This document shows positions 542-52,470 of a DNA stretch of 64,000 nt, piece after piece (the stretch's first letter is position 1; every line of letters begins with the position of its first letter). The stretch lies in contig CADCXA010000034.1 in assembly GCA_902806565.1 (NCBI GenBank), positions 186,001 to 250,000 of the forward strand, read 5' to 3'. The notes under the pieces were generated by a model. It ran no database searches. It was not told where the DNA came from and worked only from the letters and a program-made list of their open reading frames with translations. The translations under genes were made by a program, and so were the position numbers. This DNA is from Hypoxylon rubiginosum. Lineage: Eukaryota; Ascomycota; Sordariomycetes; Xylariales; Hypoxylaceae.

Positions 542-2910
542 CTACTGTGTTGTAGTCGGAGCCGTGTTCTTAACTGGTTCTCTCGCGAACGATTCCTTCT
601 CCATTGCTGCGTCCATCATCTTATTCCCGCTAATGATAGATGTCGTGCAGATAACGATATTTCGCCGGGCTGAAAATGGTATCATGTTAGTGAATACAAA
701 GGATTATGAGAAAGGGGTAGGGACATCGAAACCGACCTTCTTCTTTCTTCGCGATAAATCGTAGCGCAGCGATCTCGGTGAAGGTAATACCACCTACGAA
801 CACAACAAATACCGTCTTCTTATCACCACCTCCGGATAATAGAGCCCGAGCCTTGACGGCCTTGTCCTCGCCTTTCTGCAGCTCATCAAACGTTTGGCCT
901 CGCGCATGTTTCACAGCCTCGTCAAAGCCTCGCCACCCTTGCGCACTGCTACCAGTGGTTGCGCCTACACCGCTTACTCCATTCCCGCGTGTGATGGAGA
1001 GAAGATACTGCTTCTGTAGTAGACACTGAACTAGGCGTATAGAAAGCGGCGCATATCCACTATAGACATAGGCGATATCGTTCGGGTCATGCTCATTGAC
1101 CTCGTCGACGATCAAGCGGAGCTGTTTCCGCAAGTAGGTATAATTAGTTTTGGTCCCCGTTGCGGTCCCCGAGCCCGGCATAGGAATCATGCTCGCCATT
1201 GGCGAAGTGCGCGATAGGAATAGTTGGAGCTTTTCTAGGTTATGGAGAGTCAAGAGATGCTGGTAGCCGTAGCCCTCTAGAACTAAGCGCCTGAATTGGT
1301 CGAAGTCTTTTGATTTGATACCGCCAGATATGCACGAGTAGATGCACAGAAGTCGGAGTATATCCCGTAACGGTACGTCCCTTGCTATCAACTCTTCGAT
1401 GGCATCGAATTGAGAACTCGGATCGGCCCCTGCGGCGAGGTTCTGCTGCACTTCTAGCATACGACTGAATTGATCCGCTCTTGTATGCTTCATAATCTCC
1501 TCCGCAAGTCCAGTATGAATTTTCAAGCTTTGGTGCTCAGTTTGGTAACCCGGTAGTTTCTTTACGAAGTCTTTAAGTTCCGCTGTCGTCTTAGATGCAT
1601 GTCGGCTGTCATAGTCACTCTGTAATCTTCGAGCAACCTTGTTAAGGAGTGTGCCAACTATTGCGAAGTTCGCATCGCGGAGTCCCTCGTAGAGTTTATC
1701 TGACGAATCTAGTTGGATCTTCCGTTTCCTCGAAGTTGAAGCAGCTGTCGGAGCAGATGCTGTATTTTGAGACGCAGCTTGTGGAGGCGCACCCACGATA
1801 GTAGAATCGATATCGGTTTGGTTATTTTGGATACCCCAGACCTCGTCGATCAGCCCTTCATACGTCAGCTGGGTGAGTAAAGGTGTAACAAAATCCACTT
1901 CGCGGTCGATTATGATGACGCTTTCTATGGTGTTACTCGGAGTAAGCCCGGGTTCAGAGCCTTCGCTTGCGTCCTCTCCAGCTAGAATCTCCTGCCGCAT
2001 CCTCGTAAGCAGTTCCGCTACGCGCTTCGCATTGTCGCCTTTACCGATAACGCGTGGGAAGAGCCCATGTTTCGATTGGATACCCATCAGGGCTTTCGCC
2101 ATTAGGAAGGTCGGCGTTGCGTCTTTGAATAGGAATAGGTCTTGGAAAGAAGAGTCGAGTTCTAAGGATAAGACATCTCGTTCAAGCGGGAAGAAATACA
2201 GCGGAAGTTCGGCTATGTTCACATCGCCTAGCACGCCAGCTTCCTCGAGAATCTTGTCGGATACCAGTGTACGGCGAGGGACCCAGAAGACGTGGAATTC
2301 ATGACCGGTTTGACTCTCGCGCTGTAGCCGCTTAATCTGCTCTACGTTATATGTTAGCACGTTATGATGGCGCCTCATGCAGCTGATTTGGCAGAAGAGA
2401 CACTATAGGTCGCGCTTATGAGATGTTCCTTTTGGGCGGTTTTAACTGGCAACGTGGATTGGGACGGATGAATCCATGATGCCTACTGTAAGCCCGTGGT
2501 TCTTAGGTGCTAAACGGAGCATCGGAGGGTGAAAAGAAGGCTGATAGCGATGACAAACCTGCTATGGATTGAGCATGGCGAGCACACTCTCCCCGTGCCA
2601 TGAATACTACATTGCGCTGGCTGGTATCGGCATTCTTATTCTCTAGAAAGAAGAACTTGTCTACGCCATAATCTTGCAGGGTCGATACTTTGACGACGAC
2701 GCCAATCGGGCCGGCCAAGCTACGCTCGATGACGAGGTTTTTCTTGCCACGAACCTATAACAATTTGGTTACTTTTTGCGACCGTCTAGGCAAAGCGGTA
2801 TGATGGAAGTTCTAGGCAGCCTTACTTACGGCTTCGAGGAGATAGAGGAGATCCTTACGAGCTTTCTCTCTGATCTGTTCGGCATCGAACCCCACATGAG
2901 GAGCCATCAT
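542..2910 (-). CDS. VPS33: Vacuolar sorting protein Vps33 (Sec1/Munc18 family)
   Basis: This is the SM-family subunit of the HOPS/CORVET tethering complexes, which template and proofread SNARE assembly in endosome and vacuole fusion. There are four exons: 2910-2830, 2754-2559, 2341-737 and 669-542. The introns have GTAAGT, GTTTGT and GTCGGT donors, and the joined frame gives 669 residues, the normal family length. The Sec1 fold spans the whole protein; the stretches ESVIIIDREVDFVTPLLTQLTYEG and VGGITFTEIAALRFI are family hallmarks. Read without splicing, the C-terminus appears to end about 42 codons early, but the 67-nt intron 736-670 restores the conserved VICTTSIISGNKMMDAAM. Two ATGs lie in tandem (2910 and 2907); the second fits the usual M-A-P-H start, so the true start could be 2907. 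The next gene, UBE2W, lies upstream on the same strand. Family assignment is secure; the exon borders are inferred from splice signals and frame. Confidence 0.95.
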
Positions 2911-3811: not shown

Positions 3812-4416
3812 TTATACGTCATTGTCGTGGTAGTAGAAGTCGATGTCTCTAGGTCGCAGGCGATTTCCGCGTACGAAGTCTTCATCGCCTGGCGGTCGCT
3901 CGTTCCGGGTGTTCCCCGTCAGCATGCTCTGGAGGCTCATACACACGCTCTCCACGTTCTGAACGGGGCTCCATCCTTGCGTTCCGAGCAGGTCAAGACA
4001 AATGATGCCATTGGAATAGATGTGGGGATGCATAGGAATTGGTCGATCTTCTAGCTTGACGAAGGTTACCTCGGGAGGCTCTGCCATGCTCGCGTTAGCT
4101 CATCGTGCGTAGATGGACGGATAGCGGGGATGCATACCAATGGGGTACGCGTTGCTAAACTTGAATTTCAGACGGTAGGTCTGACCTGCATATAGAGGGT
4201 TCTGGTCGAGAACCTGGATGTCGAGGAACCATTCCTCCAGATCATCGGCGGAAACCAAGGCGATGCCAGGCGGTAGGCTATTGGAGATCTAGGAATGTAT
4301 AAATGTGTCTGGTTAACAATAGCGCGTTATGCGAAAACACAGTTACCGGCCCTTGTAAAAAGGAGAAATACCTTGGTTAACTCCTTGCCCAACCTCTTGG
4401 GACCTAGGCCGGCCAT
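3812..4416 (-). CDS. Ubiquitin-conjugating enzyme E2, UBE2W type
   Basis: Three exons (4416-4372, 4288-4138, 4080-3812) join in frame to 154 residues, the size of the UBC fold. The catalytic cysteine is Cys93 in YSNGIICLDLL. The residues before it read H-P-H (83-85), not the usual H-P-N; this is a known hallmark of UBE2W, the E2 that attaches ubiquitin to the alpha-amino group of substrate N-termini. The C-terminal FYYHDNDV matches the WYYHDD-type end of that family. Both introns have good signals: a GTATTT donor with a CCTAG acceptor, and GTATGC with GCTAACG branch site and GGCAG acceptor. Without splicing, only the 3' exon would be seen, with a false start at 4087. The UBE2W class is inferred from the H-P-H motif and the tail; E2 identity is clear. 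Confidence 0.92.
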
Positions 4417-6641
4417 AGTGGGCGCCAGAGGATTAGGCGCGTGAAATGGTGCAATACGGGTAGGTATTTGATGTTTCTCAGAAGGCGCAGTAGTGCTGCA
4501 ATTCCGATTTCGTGTTCCCTGTCAAGTCGGATGTGATGCGTCGGTTCAAATTATGCACTGAACCTGAACTGAGGTACGCCTCAAGAATAGGCTGAATAGG
4601 TTTGCGAAACGGCCGGGCGTATCTAGGGGGCCTGAGGGATGAACTTGTATTGAGAGACTCTCGTAGACAAGTAGTCGAGGGACTGTCTAGTAGTCGGGGC
4701 TCTACTTCGTAGGTTCGGATATCTTAGGTGGGATGAGGGATGAGATCTTCGATCAAACTAAGGTGAACATGTCTGCTCTGCTTAGCTTACCCCCAAGACC
4801 AGAGCAGCAGATGCTTTAACTAGGGGAGTCAAGGCGAAAAGGAGTAGAGGAACGGGTGAAGTTTTTGGATTAAAGAAGAAGCATGTAGATACTACCAAGG
4901 GAAAGGTAGGATTGTAAACTGTAGTGGACGGTGGAAGTCCCCAAGGGCAAGAAGAATAGAGTTGCCCCGCAAGTCAACAAAGCTACCAGCGGGCAGAGGA
5001 TAGAGGATGCAGAGGTAAAGTGCGGGACCGCCTTACTGCGTTACGTCCTTACCTACTGCGTCCAATGCGTCCAGTGCGTCCCGGCTAGGTGACGTTGGTT
5101 AGCGCCGACTACCTAGGTACATCTACCCCCTATGATTTAGCTAGGCACATGTATCATCTAATCGATAATATCGATAAAGGCCTCGCATAGAAATCTTAGA
5201 TCAATTCCCGCTGCAAAGGCAAAAGCAAAAACATACAACGTAAACAATTTATAGGTTGATAATTGCTAGATTGCTAGATTGCTTCTTTGGCATGTGACGT
5301 TTTCTTTATATTTATCATCTGAATCCTCTTCAAGGTACCAAGTTGTACCTACACATATATATTCATCTGTACCTGTTAGGCTCCTATGCTACTAATGTTA
5401 GGTACATAAGGTACTCGAGACCTTAGATTTCACTTGAATGAGCTGGGTGAGGCTGTTCTTATGCTCAGCCACAAAGTCCTAGCTATATGAGGCAACCCAG
5501 GGGAACAAGCTTGATGAGACCATCAACCGTAAGTACGAACTACCTAATCATCCACGAGTCATCCACGGTGTAAGTGATTGGGTTGCTCCAGTATTGCGGC
5601 TGAGCCGCCACCCTAATGTGATAGAAGACCCTTTTACCATAGCGAATACGCGAATACGTGATGCGAAACCCCACCCGGCACAAGGTACCCGACAAGGCTT
5701 TCTCCCTTTGTCACGTCAAACATAGCACATAATAGGAGGTAGCCTGGTAGCTAACATAGGAGGGGGGTGTTACCTCAATATTCAGCCTATCTGGAGGGAA
5801 TCAGAACAACAAATAGTTCCAGTTGTTGTTGATACATATACACAAACATCTCTACTCTACTACCTCCCTCCGAGGTATCCTTTCTAACACTTTACGTTAT
5901 TCAACTTAGCCATCATACCTCACCTCAGATTATACCTGAATATTATCAGATTATTGACAATAAGCAGACATCTCATCAAGTTATCAGTTGTCATATTACA
6001 TACACCAAATAGGTATTACATACACCAAAGCGGAAAAGCCCCCTCGCTCCATCGATCCAGTTTTATAAGGGACGATCAAAATTCAGCTTCTGCTCCTACC
6101 CTCCTGCCCTCCAGCCCACCCTCCTATCGCCCAAGCAGCCAAGGAGATTAGGTACCCTAAAAATAAGGAGGGGTTCTTTGAGGGGCCAGGTTTCTAGGTA
6201 CACGTATAGTACCTACATGTACGTGGAGTGCTTATAACGGATACCGTCAGGTACCTGTACTCGTATGTACCCTTTTAAGTGACGTCCCTTTCACTTTCAG
6301 CTGCGAAGAAGGTTTCAATGGTTTTTCTAAGCCCAATATTTCATATTCCATATTCCCACGTACACGTATACGTACATATAAATCTGACCTAAAAACTATC
6401 ATTTATCTAGCAGCTGAAGCCTCGTCGCCTTCCCTTTTTTTCCTTTTCGTCACTTAGGTCCAAGGGTCAAATTCTTCTTGAAGACAGTGGGCAGCAAATA
6501 CTCCAGACTACAATCCTTCAGCAGACATCCTTCAACAATTGACTTGGCCAACTCCGCCGAGACACACGACACTACAACCTTTCCAGGAAGCCCCTCACCA
6601 CCTATTCGACTTCAGCCCTTTTCGGTCTACCCCACATCGCG
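4417..6641. other. Divergent promoter region, UBE2W / CaMK
   Basis: This 2.2-kb spacer separates two divergent genes and must carry both promoters. I find no coding frame. It contains one TACCTAGGTA palindrome (5110-5119) and a run of alternating ACGT-type palindromes around 6357-6382. A C/T-rich tract about 6425-6455 sits near the likely kinase transcription start. Confidence 0.5.
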
Positions 6642-8231
<1,590 letters not shown>

Positions 8232-46900: not shown

Positions 46901-47231
46901 TTCTCTGCAAAGTTCATGACCTGAAAACAGCGAATTCTCGAGGGCATGATATTTCGGGCTCTACATCTGTTTGCGTCCAGGAAGACTTTGAGTGCAATGC
47001 TGGCATGACTGCAGCCCTCGATATTCTGATTCCAGGACACCGTGGCAATCCTGCTCAATGCCATAGGTAAAGAAAGGAGCTCTAAGCCCCTGAGCGCTGA
47101 CAGGGAGACTGTATCGGCGATAGTCAGCTCGGCGACATTCAAGACTGAATGAGTCATGACTTACTTGCTGTAGGTGCGTACGTACGTACCTATGCTACAG
47201 ATACGGCTGCAACGAGGCAGCTAACGAGGAC
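43961..47231. other. Gene-poor stretch upstream of the borosin gene
   Basis: This 3.3-kb stretch marks the change from housekeeping to accessory sequence. No intact gene is found. Part of it (44740-46330) looks like decayed coding sequence and is listed separately. A further short frame, 46671-46865 (+), has no support. Confidence 0.5.
44740..46330 (+). pseudogene. Probable decayed coding region, family not recognised
   Basis: Protein-like stretches appear on the plus strand in shifting frames, for example THALWELYLRIISREYVPDP, then AFAELSDEERRSIRAQMRYF, then AWWPIDEFGLRNHEF, broken by frequent stops. One frame, 45502-46008 (168 codons), is open but very polar and low in conserved character; a short Lys/Glu-rich piece follows. 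The order and composition suggest one old gene, or two, broken by mutations. I could not match it to a family. It could also be chance, so the confidence is low. Confidence 0.3.
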
Positions 47232-47238
47232 TATAAAG
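47232..47238 (+). promoter_or_regulatory. Candidate TATA box of the borosin gene
   Basis: TATAAAG lies 138 bp before the ATG at 47376. A GTACGTACGTAC palindrome lies about 60 bp further upstream. The distance suits a fungal core promoter with a 5' UTR of about 100 nt. This is inferred from position only. Confidence 0.45.
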
Positions 47239-47375
47239 GTAAGCAATGTGGAAGGCAATTTGATTCCAAAGTGCTCTCATCAACAAGCCTAGTAACTATT
47301 ACCAACCATTATCAAAAGAACCCTTACCCTACCGGTATCAGCCTTTTACCCTCCCTCCTTCAACCAATAGTCAGG

Positions 47376-49850
47376 ATGAATACATACGAGCACCGCAGAC
47401 CGGCTTCACATGGCTTTCGCCCTGGAAAGTTGGTGATTGTTGGATCAGGGATTCGAAGCATCTCGCAGTTCACCCTAGAAGCCGTGGCTCACATCGAACA
47501 CGCGGATAAGGTGTTTTACTGCGTTGCGGACCCCGGGACAGATGCCTTCATCGAACACCATAACAAGAATGCCACGGACCTTTACGATATGTACGATGAT
47601 GGCAAGCCCCGTCATCAAACATACACCCAGATGGCAGAGATCATACTCCAGGAAGTGCGCAAGGGCTTCTCCGTTGTAGGGGTCTTTTATGGACATCCAG
47701 GCGTCTTTGTGAACCCTGCGCATCGTGCCGTGAGCATCGCCGCCAGCGAGGGCTACGACGCCACCATGTTGCCTGGCGTGTCCGCAGAGGATTGTCTCTA
47801 CGCCGACCTCCTCATTGACCCGTCTCGCCCGGGATGTCAGACCCTAGAGGCAACGGATGTACTCTTACGGAAACGCCCCATCGCAAAGGACTGCCACGTC
47901 ATCATATTCCAGGTGGGTGCGGTCGGCGACCTAGGCTTCAACTTCAAAGGTTTTACAAACACTAAGTTCCAGGTCCTCGTCCGGCGCCTGTGGGAGCTCT
48001 ATGGTCCCGGTCATCCTGTGGTGCATTATGTGGCATCCCAACTGACGTTTGCCGCCCCAATTCGGGATCGATATACCATCCAGGACTTAGAGAAGCCGGA
48101 GGTAGCCAAGCGGGTTACCGGCATCTCGGCCTTCTATCTTCCACCCAAGGATCTACTACAGCCAGACGAAGCGGTAGCCAAATCTCTCGGACTAGTCTCG
48201 AGACCGACAACCACAGCCTCTTTCGGACCCTATGCGCCCGACCAGCCCTACGGTCCACGTGAGCTAGCGGCTGTCAAAGCTCTAAACAACCACAAAGAAC
48301 CTGCCAACTACAAAAAGACGCGAGCATCTCCGGCCTTGTACCAAGTCCTCGAGTCGCTGGCTCTGAATCCTAAGGAGGTCTCCAAGTTCCATTCCTCACG
48401 GGAGAAGTTCATCGCGCGTATCGATGGCCTCACAAAGCCAGAAGAAAAGGCTCTTCGATTTGCCAGTGCCGGGCTGATCCGCCAAGTACTGAAGAGCTCC
48501 GTCGACGATGTCGCGACGAAATTCGTCCAGGACGAGTTCCGCGACCCCACTCTGGCCGCGCAATATGCGGAGATCCTCAAGCAGAACCTCAACCAGGTCG
48601 ATGGTATTGACAAGATTACCGCGTGGCTGAAGAACAAAGGTTACGACACTACCCCGGACGCGATCGGAGAGGCCTACCAACGAGAGCTGTCACGTAATTT
48701 GGACAGCTACGATGGAAAGTATACCACCAACGTGGATGGCAAGACCGGTCCGCAGGTTCTTGTGCAGAAGGGAACAGTCTTGGTAGATGGTACCAAAATC
48801 CTGGGATTCAGCTTCAATACAAGCCAGCTATGCTGGGCGGCCGATGATGGGAACCCCTCGTCTGCCATGCTTCACTTTCAGCTGCTTACCAACGACAACG
48901 GCAAACCCTTGCCCCCTGGGTCGTATATAGGCCCACAGTTCTATGGTGTCTACTGGTCTAAAGACAGCTCGAAGCCTACGGGGAATAACACCTTGGGCAA
49001 GATCGGGGAAGTGCCTCCACCAAACCCAACGCCCCCGGTCAATCCCACACCCATTTCTACCTGGCTAGATACCTACCAGGCTTATATCAAGTCTTCGTCA
49101 GGGGGATGGGACAAGGCTGGAGAACTGGGGATTACTGGGAGTGGAACCAATCCGACGGTGACGTATAAGGACGCAACGATTCAGAAGTACTCATATCAGA
49201 ATGAGACGATCAGCTGGTCATCAGCCGATGGCAACCCCAATAACGCCACTCTTTCCTTCTACATTAAGAAAGACACCAAGGATGATTCCCCGCCCGGGAA
49301 CCAGTTCTCAGGCAAGTACTGGGAGCGTGGTCAACCCCCGCCCGCCGCCTTCAACCTTTGCGGCGTGATCGGCAGCTCGAACTCCGTGGATGCGGCAGCC
49401 AAGGCCGCGGCGACCGCAGCACTCTGGAAGACCATCGGCACCAACCTGGGGGTGGGCGTCGCGACGTTTGTACTGGGCGACGCCGTAAACAAGGCAATCA
49501 AAGCGTTCGTCGAATGGGTCCGCAACCCCACACAGCAAAACAAGGAGGCGCTAGACCAGGCCAGCGAGGAGGCTGGAGAGGTGGGAGAACAGCAGGAGGC
49601 AGTTGAGGCAGAGGGCGTAGAGCTAAACCCGGGAGGAGACATCGTCGATTCTGGCGACGTACCCGCGCAGGCTGCGGAAGCTGCAGAAGCTGCGGAGGCT
49701 GCGGAGGTTGCGGAGGTTGCGGAGGCCGCAGAAGTTGCAGAAGCCGCAGAGGTTGCAGAAGTTGCGGAAGTTGCAGAGGTCGCGGAGGTCGCGGAGGTTG
49801 CAGAGGTTGCGGAGGTTGCAGTGGAAGTTGTTGAAGTTGTTATTGTATAA
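47376..49850 (+). CDS. Borosin-type fused peptide alpha-N-methyltransferase/precursor
   Basis: One intronless frame of 824 residues. The first ATG of the frame is 47376. Residues about 18-258 form a SAM-dependent TP-methylase domain of the OphMA class: VGSGIRSI (22-29), [12 protein letters not shown] (103-114), [10 protein letters not shown] (131-140), GISAFYLPP (249-257). The catalytic triad of this class is present with exact spacing as Tyr73, Arg79 and Tyr83, and Tyr105 is the further active-site tyrosine. In this family the enzyme methylates backbone amides of its own C-terminus. A helical clasp-like module (about 315-372) follows, then a second helical module (376-443) that looks Nif11-like, two W-x-x-A-D-G-N-P beta modules (about 455-530 and 592-650), a hydrophobic helix (672-716), an acidic linker, 16 [A/V]AE triplets (766-813) and the tail [11 protein letters not shown]. 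The methyltransferase call is strong; the core peptide is inferred. Confidence 0.88.
49671..49814 (+). repeat. 9-bp coding minisatellite, 16 [A/V]AE units
   Basis: Sixteen units of GYN-GCN-GAR or GCN-GCN-GAR stand in perfect frame at the 3' end of the borosin gene. The protein order is AAE x4, VAE x2, [12 protein letters not shown] x7. Third bases vary freely (GCG/GCA, GAA/GAG, GTT/GTC), so the array is not fresh slippage and the protein pattern seems to be kept. Confidence 0.97.
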
Positions 49851-51069
49851 ATCGGAAATGTGAGGTATGCAGGGCACGCCAAATTTGTTTGCTAAAGGTA
49901 ATATTTAATTACATTAGGTAGATGGGTACCTTGTTCACAAGCCGTATTCCAAGATGGAAGTTCCCTTTCAGATAGCCTACAGCATCCGTGATACGTCAAG
50001 GGGGAGTACCGCTGCTGTCTCGACCAAAAGCATCTCAACGACGATGGGACCTCCGGCGAGATGATTGATAGCGGTGGACTAGAGCCGTATTAGACGACTA
50101 TCGCAGAGAGATAGTGGTTCAATGTCTCGTGAAGAAGCAGTTATTCAAAGGGGTTGAGCTGAAGACCTTGAATTTTAGACCGATGTCTAAAAGTTCCGGC
50201 GCAATCGCCAGGTACCTGGAGGGAAATCATCGCCAATCGTGTTCCGTACTTCTTCGACTGGAACGGCCCGCCCATGACAACCGACACGGCCTGTTCGTCA
50301 AGTCTCGTCGCAGTACATGAGGTCCTGGGAAGTGGGAAATGCCACCTAGCCGTAGCTACTTGGTCTTTCGGCCTCTTACGGTACAGGTATATCGACTTGA
50401 TTCTCTCTCTCTCTCTCTCTCTTTTCGCTAACACGTAAGACTTGGTAATGAATTGTCGTATGCTTACCTCCTTTCAGGACAAACTACGCCATAAACTCTA
50501 CAATTCGCCACTAGAGAATATACCGTTTCACCTGACCCCCAGGAGTAAGCGAGTTGATGGATTGCTGACGTTCGAGAAGACACGGCACTCTAACTAACCG
50601 ATCGTGCAGAATCAATTGTATCAGTCTGCGCAAGTAATGAGTTTCAGGGGTAACATGTCATCTACGGGATTCGGCTTCCAGCCGCTAAGGAAGGCCCTTT
50701 AGCGCTAGAATGTGGTAGGAGGTAGTGAAGTTATGCGCTATAACCCCCTGCAGTCCAGTGTAGCTACAGTGGTCTTTAGCGAGATAATTCTCATTTTGAT
50801 CTGCAGGTGGTGACAATTACTTCCTCAATTCACACTGGTCTGGCTTTTGAATTATGTTTGCTTGGCAAGTATTCCAATGAGTAAAATAACATGAGCTTTC
50901 CTAGGTAAACTAAGCCTCTTCTCGTCGTTGCTGAGCGTATCTATTAGAGTTCCTTCGAAGACAATTATCATGAACACGGTCCGGCTCTACTCCAAGACCT
51001 TTGTTTTCTTAGTCAGCCCTCCTTTTCATGTGTGAGAAAGCAAGAATATAACGATTTTTGATCGGTTCT
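49851..51069. other. Spacer between borosin gene and 7TM gene
   Basis: Convergent 3' regions of the borosin gene and the minus-strand rhodopsin-domain gene. It contains a (TC)10 microsatellite and no coding frame with protein-like content. Confidence 0.5.
50402..50421. repeat. (TC)10 microsatellite
   Basis: Ten TC dinucleotides in a row, about 550 bp beyond the borosin stop codon. Confidence 0.95.
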
Positions 51070-52470
51070 CTAGACTTCACCATTATACTGTCGTAAATTT
51101 CTATCATTCTCCCGGTTGACAATGATTGACATCTCTTGATCATCATCGGCATGACGGTCCGACCCCGTTTGATGACCTTTTTGAGACTGTGTTGCAAGGC
51201 GCTCACGAGACCAACCAGCCTCATTGTTGCATGATTCTCCTCGTCCTTTGAAATGTGATAAAAGGCTAGATACTTTTCGGAAGGTCAGAAGACCCCAAAA
51301 AGCCGGGGCGCAGAAGACCACTAGTAGGAGTAGCATGTCGGCCGTCGAAGATAAAGCAATTTCAGCTAAGATAAAAGTGAAATCCGCAATATGTGGTAGC
51401 TTGACATGAGCGGTGAGGCGAAAAGCCGCGATCGCACAAGCTGCGCTATCCTTCCATATCAGCAATGCGGAAGAGTCGAGGAAGACCATCAATGGACCTA
51501 CATTAAGCCGACAGCGAAGACAAAAGATACCCAGAGCCTCTTCATCTTCGTCATGTTCAGGCCCCAGATAGCTTTCTGCGGAGAAAAGAGGATGAAAATG
51601 TCTGTGATGAAGTTGATAATAGCACCTGCGAGATAAAGACGGTTGCCGTCGAAGCAGGAACCGGGGATAGTCGTATCCCATATCTTCTGCATCGGAATGC
51701 AGATGAAGTTCTGAGCAATAATTATCGCCGTATAAAATAGAATGTTTATACCAAGCACGGCCTGGCTCGACCAGTAGAAGGCATTCCGAGAACCCAATGG
51801 ATTGAATATTCGCAGCCATTGCAGAATGATGGCAACTTTCAACAACCCCATACTATGGGTATAGAGATTGGCGCCAATATGGTAGATCTAACAGCAATTA
51901 ATGACTTAGATATTTGTAAGTATTTATGAAAGGGGTGTTATAGAAGAAGAGAATGCAAAGAGAAAAGAGTCTTAACTTACGTAGAGGATTCTCGACATAT
52001 CACTCGCACGTACATTCCACATATGGACATAGAATCCAGGGTAGATAAGCAGACCTATACAACAATATACCACCCAGCCGACGTAGAGTCCCTAATTCAC
52101 CATGGTTAGCCAACAATGAAACTTATTAAGGATCCCCTCCCTTCAAGGAATATCTTACATATCCTGCGATTGCGAGGTCTTCATCCTGTTAGTAATTATT
52201 CTGTTGTGGGAGGCGGTTCGGCAACTTCTCTGCCGTAGGTTACTTACAGTCCTCGAACTGAAGTCTCTTTAAATACCTGGCCTGAGAGTAGAGACGGGCA
52301 AGAAGAGCTCCAGTGCCCAGCAACAGGAAAAATGAAAAAAGAGCATATCCCGAAGTATTGTATCCTCCACGATTGTTAAAATCGGAGCTGACACCGGGTG
52401 GAGGCTCAAGGGCAGGTAGCAGCAACTCTTGAGAGGCGTTTCGGGCAGTGAACGAAGAGTTGTTTGGCAT
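51070..52470 (-). CDS. Rhodopsin-domain integral membrane protein (Pth11/SAT4-like)
   Basis: Five exons (52470-52248, 52178-52159, 52091-51981, 51887-51502, 51445-51070), one of only 20 nt, give 371 residues. Exon 2 reads YLAIAGY and completes the family motif E-D-Y-L. Seven hydrophobic segments can be traced, starting with YALFSFFLLLGTGALLARLY, then GLYVGWVVYCCIGLLIYPGF, SMGLLKVAIILQWLRIF, AVLGINILFYTAIIIAQNF, LAGAIINFITDIFILF, VSFVFAVGLIAACAIAAFRL and MLLLLVVFCAPAFWGLL. The Cys pair FICIPMQKIWD and PGSCFDGN is typical. The tail is polar. There is no CFEM domain. The family is common at the fungal plasma membrane, often next to secondary-metabolite genes; a sensing role is known for Pth11 and only guessed here. 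It is intact, unlike its neighbours. Confidence 0.88.

Follow-up and report, generated by a model that had tools for sequence, protein, structure and literature searches.

Peptides cross membranes more readily and resist proteases better when their backbone is N-methylated. In excerpts from Miller et al. (2021; PMC8429565), more than 10 further fungal borosin precursors of about 400-850 residues are reported as validated, all of them fused. Excerpts from Xu et al. (2024; PMC11395268) describe type III fused borosins, whose core alternates acidic and other residues, and the bacterial KchMA, which self-methylates with up to 11 modifications in residues 742-796, most of them at nonpolar residues (Ala, Val and Leu, for example); the tree published there places fungal and bacterial borosins in separate clades (PMC11395268). 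The definition of type III used below comes from passages of these two papers, and AboMA is the published probe for the type. Here, we analyzed a complete borosin precursor gene of 824 codons in a 64,000-nucleotide stretch of the genome of the filamentous fungus Hypoxylon rubiginosum (contig CADCXA010000034.1, positions 186,001 to 250,000; hereafter the window). We put at about 85% the probability that its product would methylate the backbone of its own tail, as a fused type III-like borosin precursor with a C-terminal core.

The gene encodes a borosin-class methyltransferase and clasp

The precursor gene lies on the forward strand (47376..49850, +) as one uninterrupted frame: an open frame of 824 codons begins with ATG and is closed by TAA (47376-49850, +), with 0 internal stops, and the surrounding open frame spans 47160-49850 (+). 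When the protein was compared with known borosins using phmmer, it matched dbOphMA over residues 11-376 (E=9e-115) and OphMA over residues 15-375 (E=2.5e-112), and because of these values a chance origin of the similarity is excluded. Identity to OphMA was ~50% over residues 15-374, which comprise the methyltransferase and the clasp. The backbone N-methyltransferase domain covers residues 17-273 (47424..48194, +), and the Pfam TP_methylase profile matched the protein at 60.5 bits (cut-off 27.8). A residue check placed the catalytic stretch Tyr70, Tyr73, Arg79, Tyr83 and Tyr105 at 47583..47690 (+); Tyr73, Arg79 and Tyr83 were invariant in a 31-row alignment, and Tyr70 and Tyr105 were nearly so. 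Ser136 and Gln179 were likewise found at their named positions in the window protein. The landmarks that an earlier reading of the sequence alone (the sequence-only reading) had listed for the OphMA class, including Tyr73/Arg79/Tyr83 and Tyr105, are therefore all present, and in the phmmer alignments they keep a constant offset to OphMA, whose counterparts we take to be Y63/Y66/R72/Y76/Y98; these five names occur as OphMA mutants in PDB titles.

The clasp follows at residues 281-374 (48216..48497, +), with helices like those of the borosin-binding domain (BBD): the OphMA phmmer alignment reaches residue 375, and the model has short helices between residues 319 and 372. On these sequence grounds the protein is a borosin-class fused methyltransferase/precursor, the identity that had first been assigned to it. 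In end-to-end alignments, it shared 58% identity over residues 7-824 with an 832-residue protein of Clonostachys solani (P0002; 14 gap positions) and 52% identity over residues 13-824 with a protein of Erwinia phyllosphaerae (5 gap positions), and this full-length agreement of the frame bears out the proposal that the gene is intronless. The only match of the precursor protein in its own genome (48.3 Mb, 70 contigs) was the 47376-49850 gene itself.

The C-terminal repeat is a candidate core

The last 63 residues consist of VPAQ, a stretch containing sixteen AE(A/V) units and a VEVVEVVIV end. Tandem repeat and codon analysis delimited a putative core, the AE(A/V) repeat with VEVVEVVIV and the stop codon, at 49671..49850 (+), and residues 766-824 contain only A, E, V and I. 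The last 63 residues hold 18 acidic residues, 16 of them at a strict period of 3. Upstream of the repeat, a putative leader-core junction (residues 751-765; 49626..49670, +) is marked by a recurring NP...(D/E)VP(A/S)Q motif, which was present in four of the eight relatives compared (P0002, P0003, Erwinia L005 and Xenorhabdus P0027); P0005 and P0007 have the counterpart DIPVP, and the motif was not found in P0004 or P0024. After DIPVP, the long relatives P0005 and P0007 carry Thr/Asp repeat tails (TTTTD), another core chemistry on a shared scaffold.

The tail is encoded by a tandem array of 9-base units (49665-49819; 17.2 copies, 82% matches), and slippage has therefore acted on it. This raises the alternative, in our judgment improbable, that the tail is a slippage-made acidic low-complexity extension and no core, with the enzyme acting on a separate peptide in the manner of split borosins or decaying. 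Its Val codons fit such an origin, with GTT used at 13 of 18 in the tail versus 11% elsewhere in the gene, as do the many long relatives that have no fused tail. Comparison with the E. phyllosphaerae homologue L005 (NZ_JAHSPF010000005.1), whose 61-residue tail has 16 units and a VEVLIV end, argues against mere slippage. The two tails (63 and 61 residues) have their acidic residues at identical positions 6-51 and share pattern, register and length, although their codons mostly differ: of 52 in-register codons, positions 1, 2 and 3 agree at 52, 47 and 16, and only 12 of the 47 agreeing residues share a codon. Moreover, by segment the similarity to Erwinia is highest in the tail, with 53/61 residues identical; the methyltransferase has 171/265, the clasp 36/93 and the two barrels described below 47/99 and 44/107. 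Low complexity inflates the tail value, however, and independent expansion of the identical unit in the fungus and in Erwinia is possible. The junction and the hydrophobic end also recur in some relatives.

Two beta-barrels and a long helix separate the clasp from the tail

The sequence-only reading had also described extra modules between the clasp and the C-terminus of the 824-residue chain, and these are directly seen in the alignment and in structure predictions, which were made as monomers. AlphaFold2 modeling of residues 385-745 with 26 relatives gave a mean predicted local distance difference test score (pLDDT) of 91.2 and a predicted template modeling score (pTM) of 0.84. A second small helical domain (residues 375-446; 48498..48713, +) with four short helices (376-389, 391-403, 410-420 and 427-440) is followed by beta-barrel 1 (residues 447-545; 48714..49010, +) and beta-barrel 2 (residues 562-668; 49059..49379, +), then by a 46-residue helix (671-716) and a helix at 720-750 (both within 49386..49625, +). 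In a profile-profile comparison, barrel 1 and barrel 2 proved homologous (probability 99.5%, E 5e-23). No confident relative of the inserted modules was found in the PDB by structure and sequence comparison, and the Nif11-type leader profile (TIGR03798, cut-off 32.3 bits), sought at residues 375-446, did not match the window protein at E up to 1; likeness to this leader below the cut-off appeared in 4 of the 31 alignment members, the best being P0008 (16.2 bits, residues 395-457). The long helix bears an IGxNLGVG-like motif and a moderately hydrophobic stretch, with a Kyte-Doolittle 19-residue maximum of 1.29 (1.33 in P0004 and 1.13 in P0024).

We take the inserted modules as a spacer or leader because Xenorhabdus P0027 has no helical domain, barrels or long helix (as is also the case for L006) and keeps the methyltransferase, the clasp, an NPGG...EVPAQ junction and a 16-residue tail; P0027 could equally be a decaying copy. 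That the barrels and the long helix instead belong to the product, so that the mature agent would be an effector of protein size whose tail is N-methylated, seems to us quite unlikely. The two-barrel module is indeed widespread, barrel 1 being present in 31/31 and barrel 2 in 29/31 alignment rows of fungal and bacterial relatives; the helix is more hydrophobic (1.94-2.17) in P0002, P0003, P0005, P0007 and L005 than in the window protein; and the S9 peptidase family (PF00326) had no match in the window. However, P0027 keeps the junction and short tail with the module absent, and neither the sequence nor a confident fold match suggests an effector. The least probable alternative by far, a metabolic tetrapyrrole or diphthamide methylase carrying an extension, draws on the generic TP_methylase match and on weak NCBIfam matches to CobI/CbiL (16.6 bits versus a cut-off of 163) and YabN (38.4 versus 525), and is ruled out by the phmmer results with dbOphMA and OphMA and by a protein far nearer OphMA, dbOphMA, MroMA1 and SonM than any tetrapyrrole methylase seen, which also answers the check for such a best match that had been proposed beforehand.

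Proposed mechanism of self-methylation

In the self-methylation model, the N-terminal S-adenosylmethionine-dependent backbone N-methyltransferase would act as an interlocked dimer, as in OphMA, and the helical domain, two barrels and long helix after the clasp would form an extended spacer or leader. By analogy with OphMA and KchMA, from which the dimer, the methylation, the release and the product are all projected, the (Ala-Glu-Ala/Val)16-VEVVEVVIV tail would be the core, with methyl groups placed on its backbone nitrogens chiefly at Ala and Val, the uncharged residues. The enzyme would probably work along the tail in the N-to-C direction, and a protease would then free the core, probably by cutting at the NPGG...DVPAQ junction or close to it.

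Several observations weigh against this model. Peptidase searches of the genome and the window assigned no cleavage or cyclization enzyme: PF00326 had 19 matches in the genome and 0 in the window, and the propeller of prolyl oligopeptidase (POP; PF02897) had no genome match, in exon-by-exon searches that an intron-rich POP could escape. In many relatives, bacterial or unnamed (e.g. P0015-P0021, P0023 and P0026), the chain ends just after barrel 2 and no core is visible; the inserted modules can thus occur where none is fused to them. Of the 36 listed tails, about eight (P0001-P0005, P0007, P0024 and P0034) have a clear acidic or Thr/Asp repeat at the end, and P0008 and P0025 are debatable. Furthermore, a low-complexity repeat made of A, E, V and I only can arise by slippage, and KchMA, a long borosin with published methylation data, by all signs has a different core sequence, as judged from Kitasatospora P0024, which seems similar to KchMA (by hand count, its catalytic residues are offset by 21).

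Relatives in bacteria and possible gene transfer

In a tree of named sequences (15 fungal and 13 bacterial), the window protein, Clonostachys and Viridothelium grouped with Erwinia, Xenorhabdus and Trinickia (support 97.8/99), and the type I fungal group was separate (98.9/99). In approximately unbiased (AU) tests, neither monophyly of all fungi (p = 0.052) nor that of all but Viridothelium, a partial sequence (p = 0.176), was rejected at 5%. In a 52-sequence tree, the Erwinia group adjoins the window's clade (84.7/76), Viridothelium moves elsewhere and the deep nodes are weak. These comparisons suggest gene transfer between fungi and bacteria. The Erwinia borosin gene (L088, 4384-11790) lies near tRNA-Leu(caa) and genes for an Ash-family protein, DUF5375, a P4-type primase and a LuxR-type regulator, and with such P4-satellite-type neighbors it is possibly the cargo of a satellite or island. 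No integrase was identified among the open reading frames (ORFs) scanned at this locus, a DNA search of E. coli genomes with the Erwinia gene found no match, the window protein had no match in phage records and alignment A1 had no confirmed match in viral contigs; the window protein had 7 partial matches on plasmids.

Plasmids H3 and H4 of Mycetohabitans endofungorum, a bacterium living inside a fungus (listed host Rhizopus microsporus), carry genes for borosin-type methyltransferases (34% identity, covering 60% of the query). Such methyltransferases are also listed from an animal, the sponge Oscarella lobularis (P0164), and from eukaryote sequence sets (P0025 and P0028, the latter labelled 'Scripp...').

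A broader scenario, which we offer tentatively and consider doubtful in view of the AU p = 0.176 above, is that one type III lineage is common to filamentous fungi and Enterobacterales, having crossed between kingdoms in either direction, and that in Erwinia it accompanies P4-satellite-type genes at a tRNA. Selection on the peptide would have preserved nearly every residue of the (Ala-Glu-Ala/Val)16 core as the codons changed. The product would be a long, regular acidic repeat peptide, N-methylated in part, whose conserved function would differ from that of the hydrophobic omphalotin macrocycles. If the transfer is true, the tree with separate fungal and bacterial clades, as given in the excerpts of PMC11395268, needs qualifying.

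Genomic neighborhood of the precursor gene

The window is fungal chromosomal DNA, because frames with Elongin A, Band 7, Rad21/Rec8, MED14, cation-transport ATPase and fungal rhodopsin domains were found there. No tailoring cluster is evident around the borosin gene in the window. The recognized genes to its left are housekeeping genes; just downstream, a 49-residue beta-ketoacyl-synthase fragment (50211-50357, +; 43.3 bits, cut-off 20.8) resembles the remnant of a polyketide synthase. The nearest recognized gene to the right is marked by a fungal rhodopsin-domain exon (51498-51887, -; Pfam PF20684, 6e-27). A P450 trace near 57.9 kb was below the cut-off, and the flank frames sampled past 59.8 kb had no family.

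Comparison with known borosins

The protein had 95 relatives at E <= 0.001, and the 13 best (P0002-P0014) are 761-1,088 residues long. Two expectations of the sequence-only reading did not hold: characterized fungal borosins are not confined to about 400-420 residues, since the validated ones in the excerpts of PMC8429565 span about 400-850, and the layout is not novel, since long fused precursors with a self-methylating member, KchMA, appear as type III in those of PMC11395268. The window gene is, by its layout, a type III-like fused borosin from a filamentous fungus. Its chain is fused, with the candidate core at residues 766-824, the far C-terminus of 824 residues (the KchMA sites being at 742-796 in the same excerpts), and acidic and other residues alternate in that core (16 acidic residues at period 3). 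A type I (OphMA) layout, with the core soon after the clasp in a chain of ~400-420 residues, was rejected, as ~390 residues lie between the clasp end and the tail.

Long fused borosins were thus already known, and what is added here is a bacterial relative with an almost identical repeating tail. With one charged residue per three, this tail is a very regular substrate for learning which positions the enzyme accepts, and the Erwinia gene offers a tractable bacterial system for the core-position question. The Xenorhabdus version without barrels tests the purpose of the inserted modules. The case goes beyond routine because a fungal and a bacterial protein have repeat tails that are in register; with this pair, both core specificity and transfer between kingdoms can be tested directly.

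OphMA and dbOphMA (type I, omphalotin family) share the methyltransferase, clasp and catalytic residues with the window protein. However, OphMA has 417 residues with its core soon after the clasp, whereas the window protein has ~390 intervening residues and an acidic repetitive tail. By their description in the excerpts of PMC11395268, KchMA (Kitasatospora, WP_084224105.1) and AboMA (Anomoporia, P9WEN4) likewise hold methyltransferase, clasp/BBD and core in one chain and are like the window protein in the acidic/other alternation of the core and in the catalytic residues, and the methylated sites of KchMA (742-796) are equally far down the chain as the window tail. Kitasatospora P0024 is 35% identical to the window protein across residues 22-774, and its D/V/I-rich tail differs from the regular (AE[A/V])16 core. 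Clonostachys solani P0002 (832 residues, unnamed product) has the window's modules and an AEA/AEV tail, but with AEAEAAEA spacing and a ...VIAEVII end. The Erwinia protein differs from the window protein by an extra N-terminal domain of ~185 residues with a short AEV repeat; in L005 (ORF 4407-7427), this second short repeat lies at residues ~122-157, before the methyltransferase. Otherwise, Erwinia L005/L088 is like the window protein in layout, barrels, helix, DVPAQ junction and 16 AE(A/V) units.
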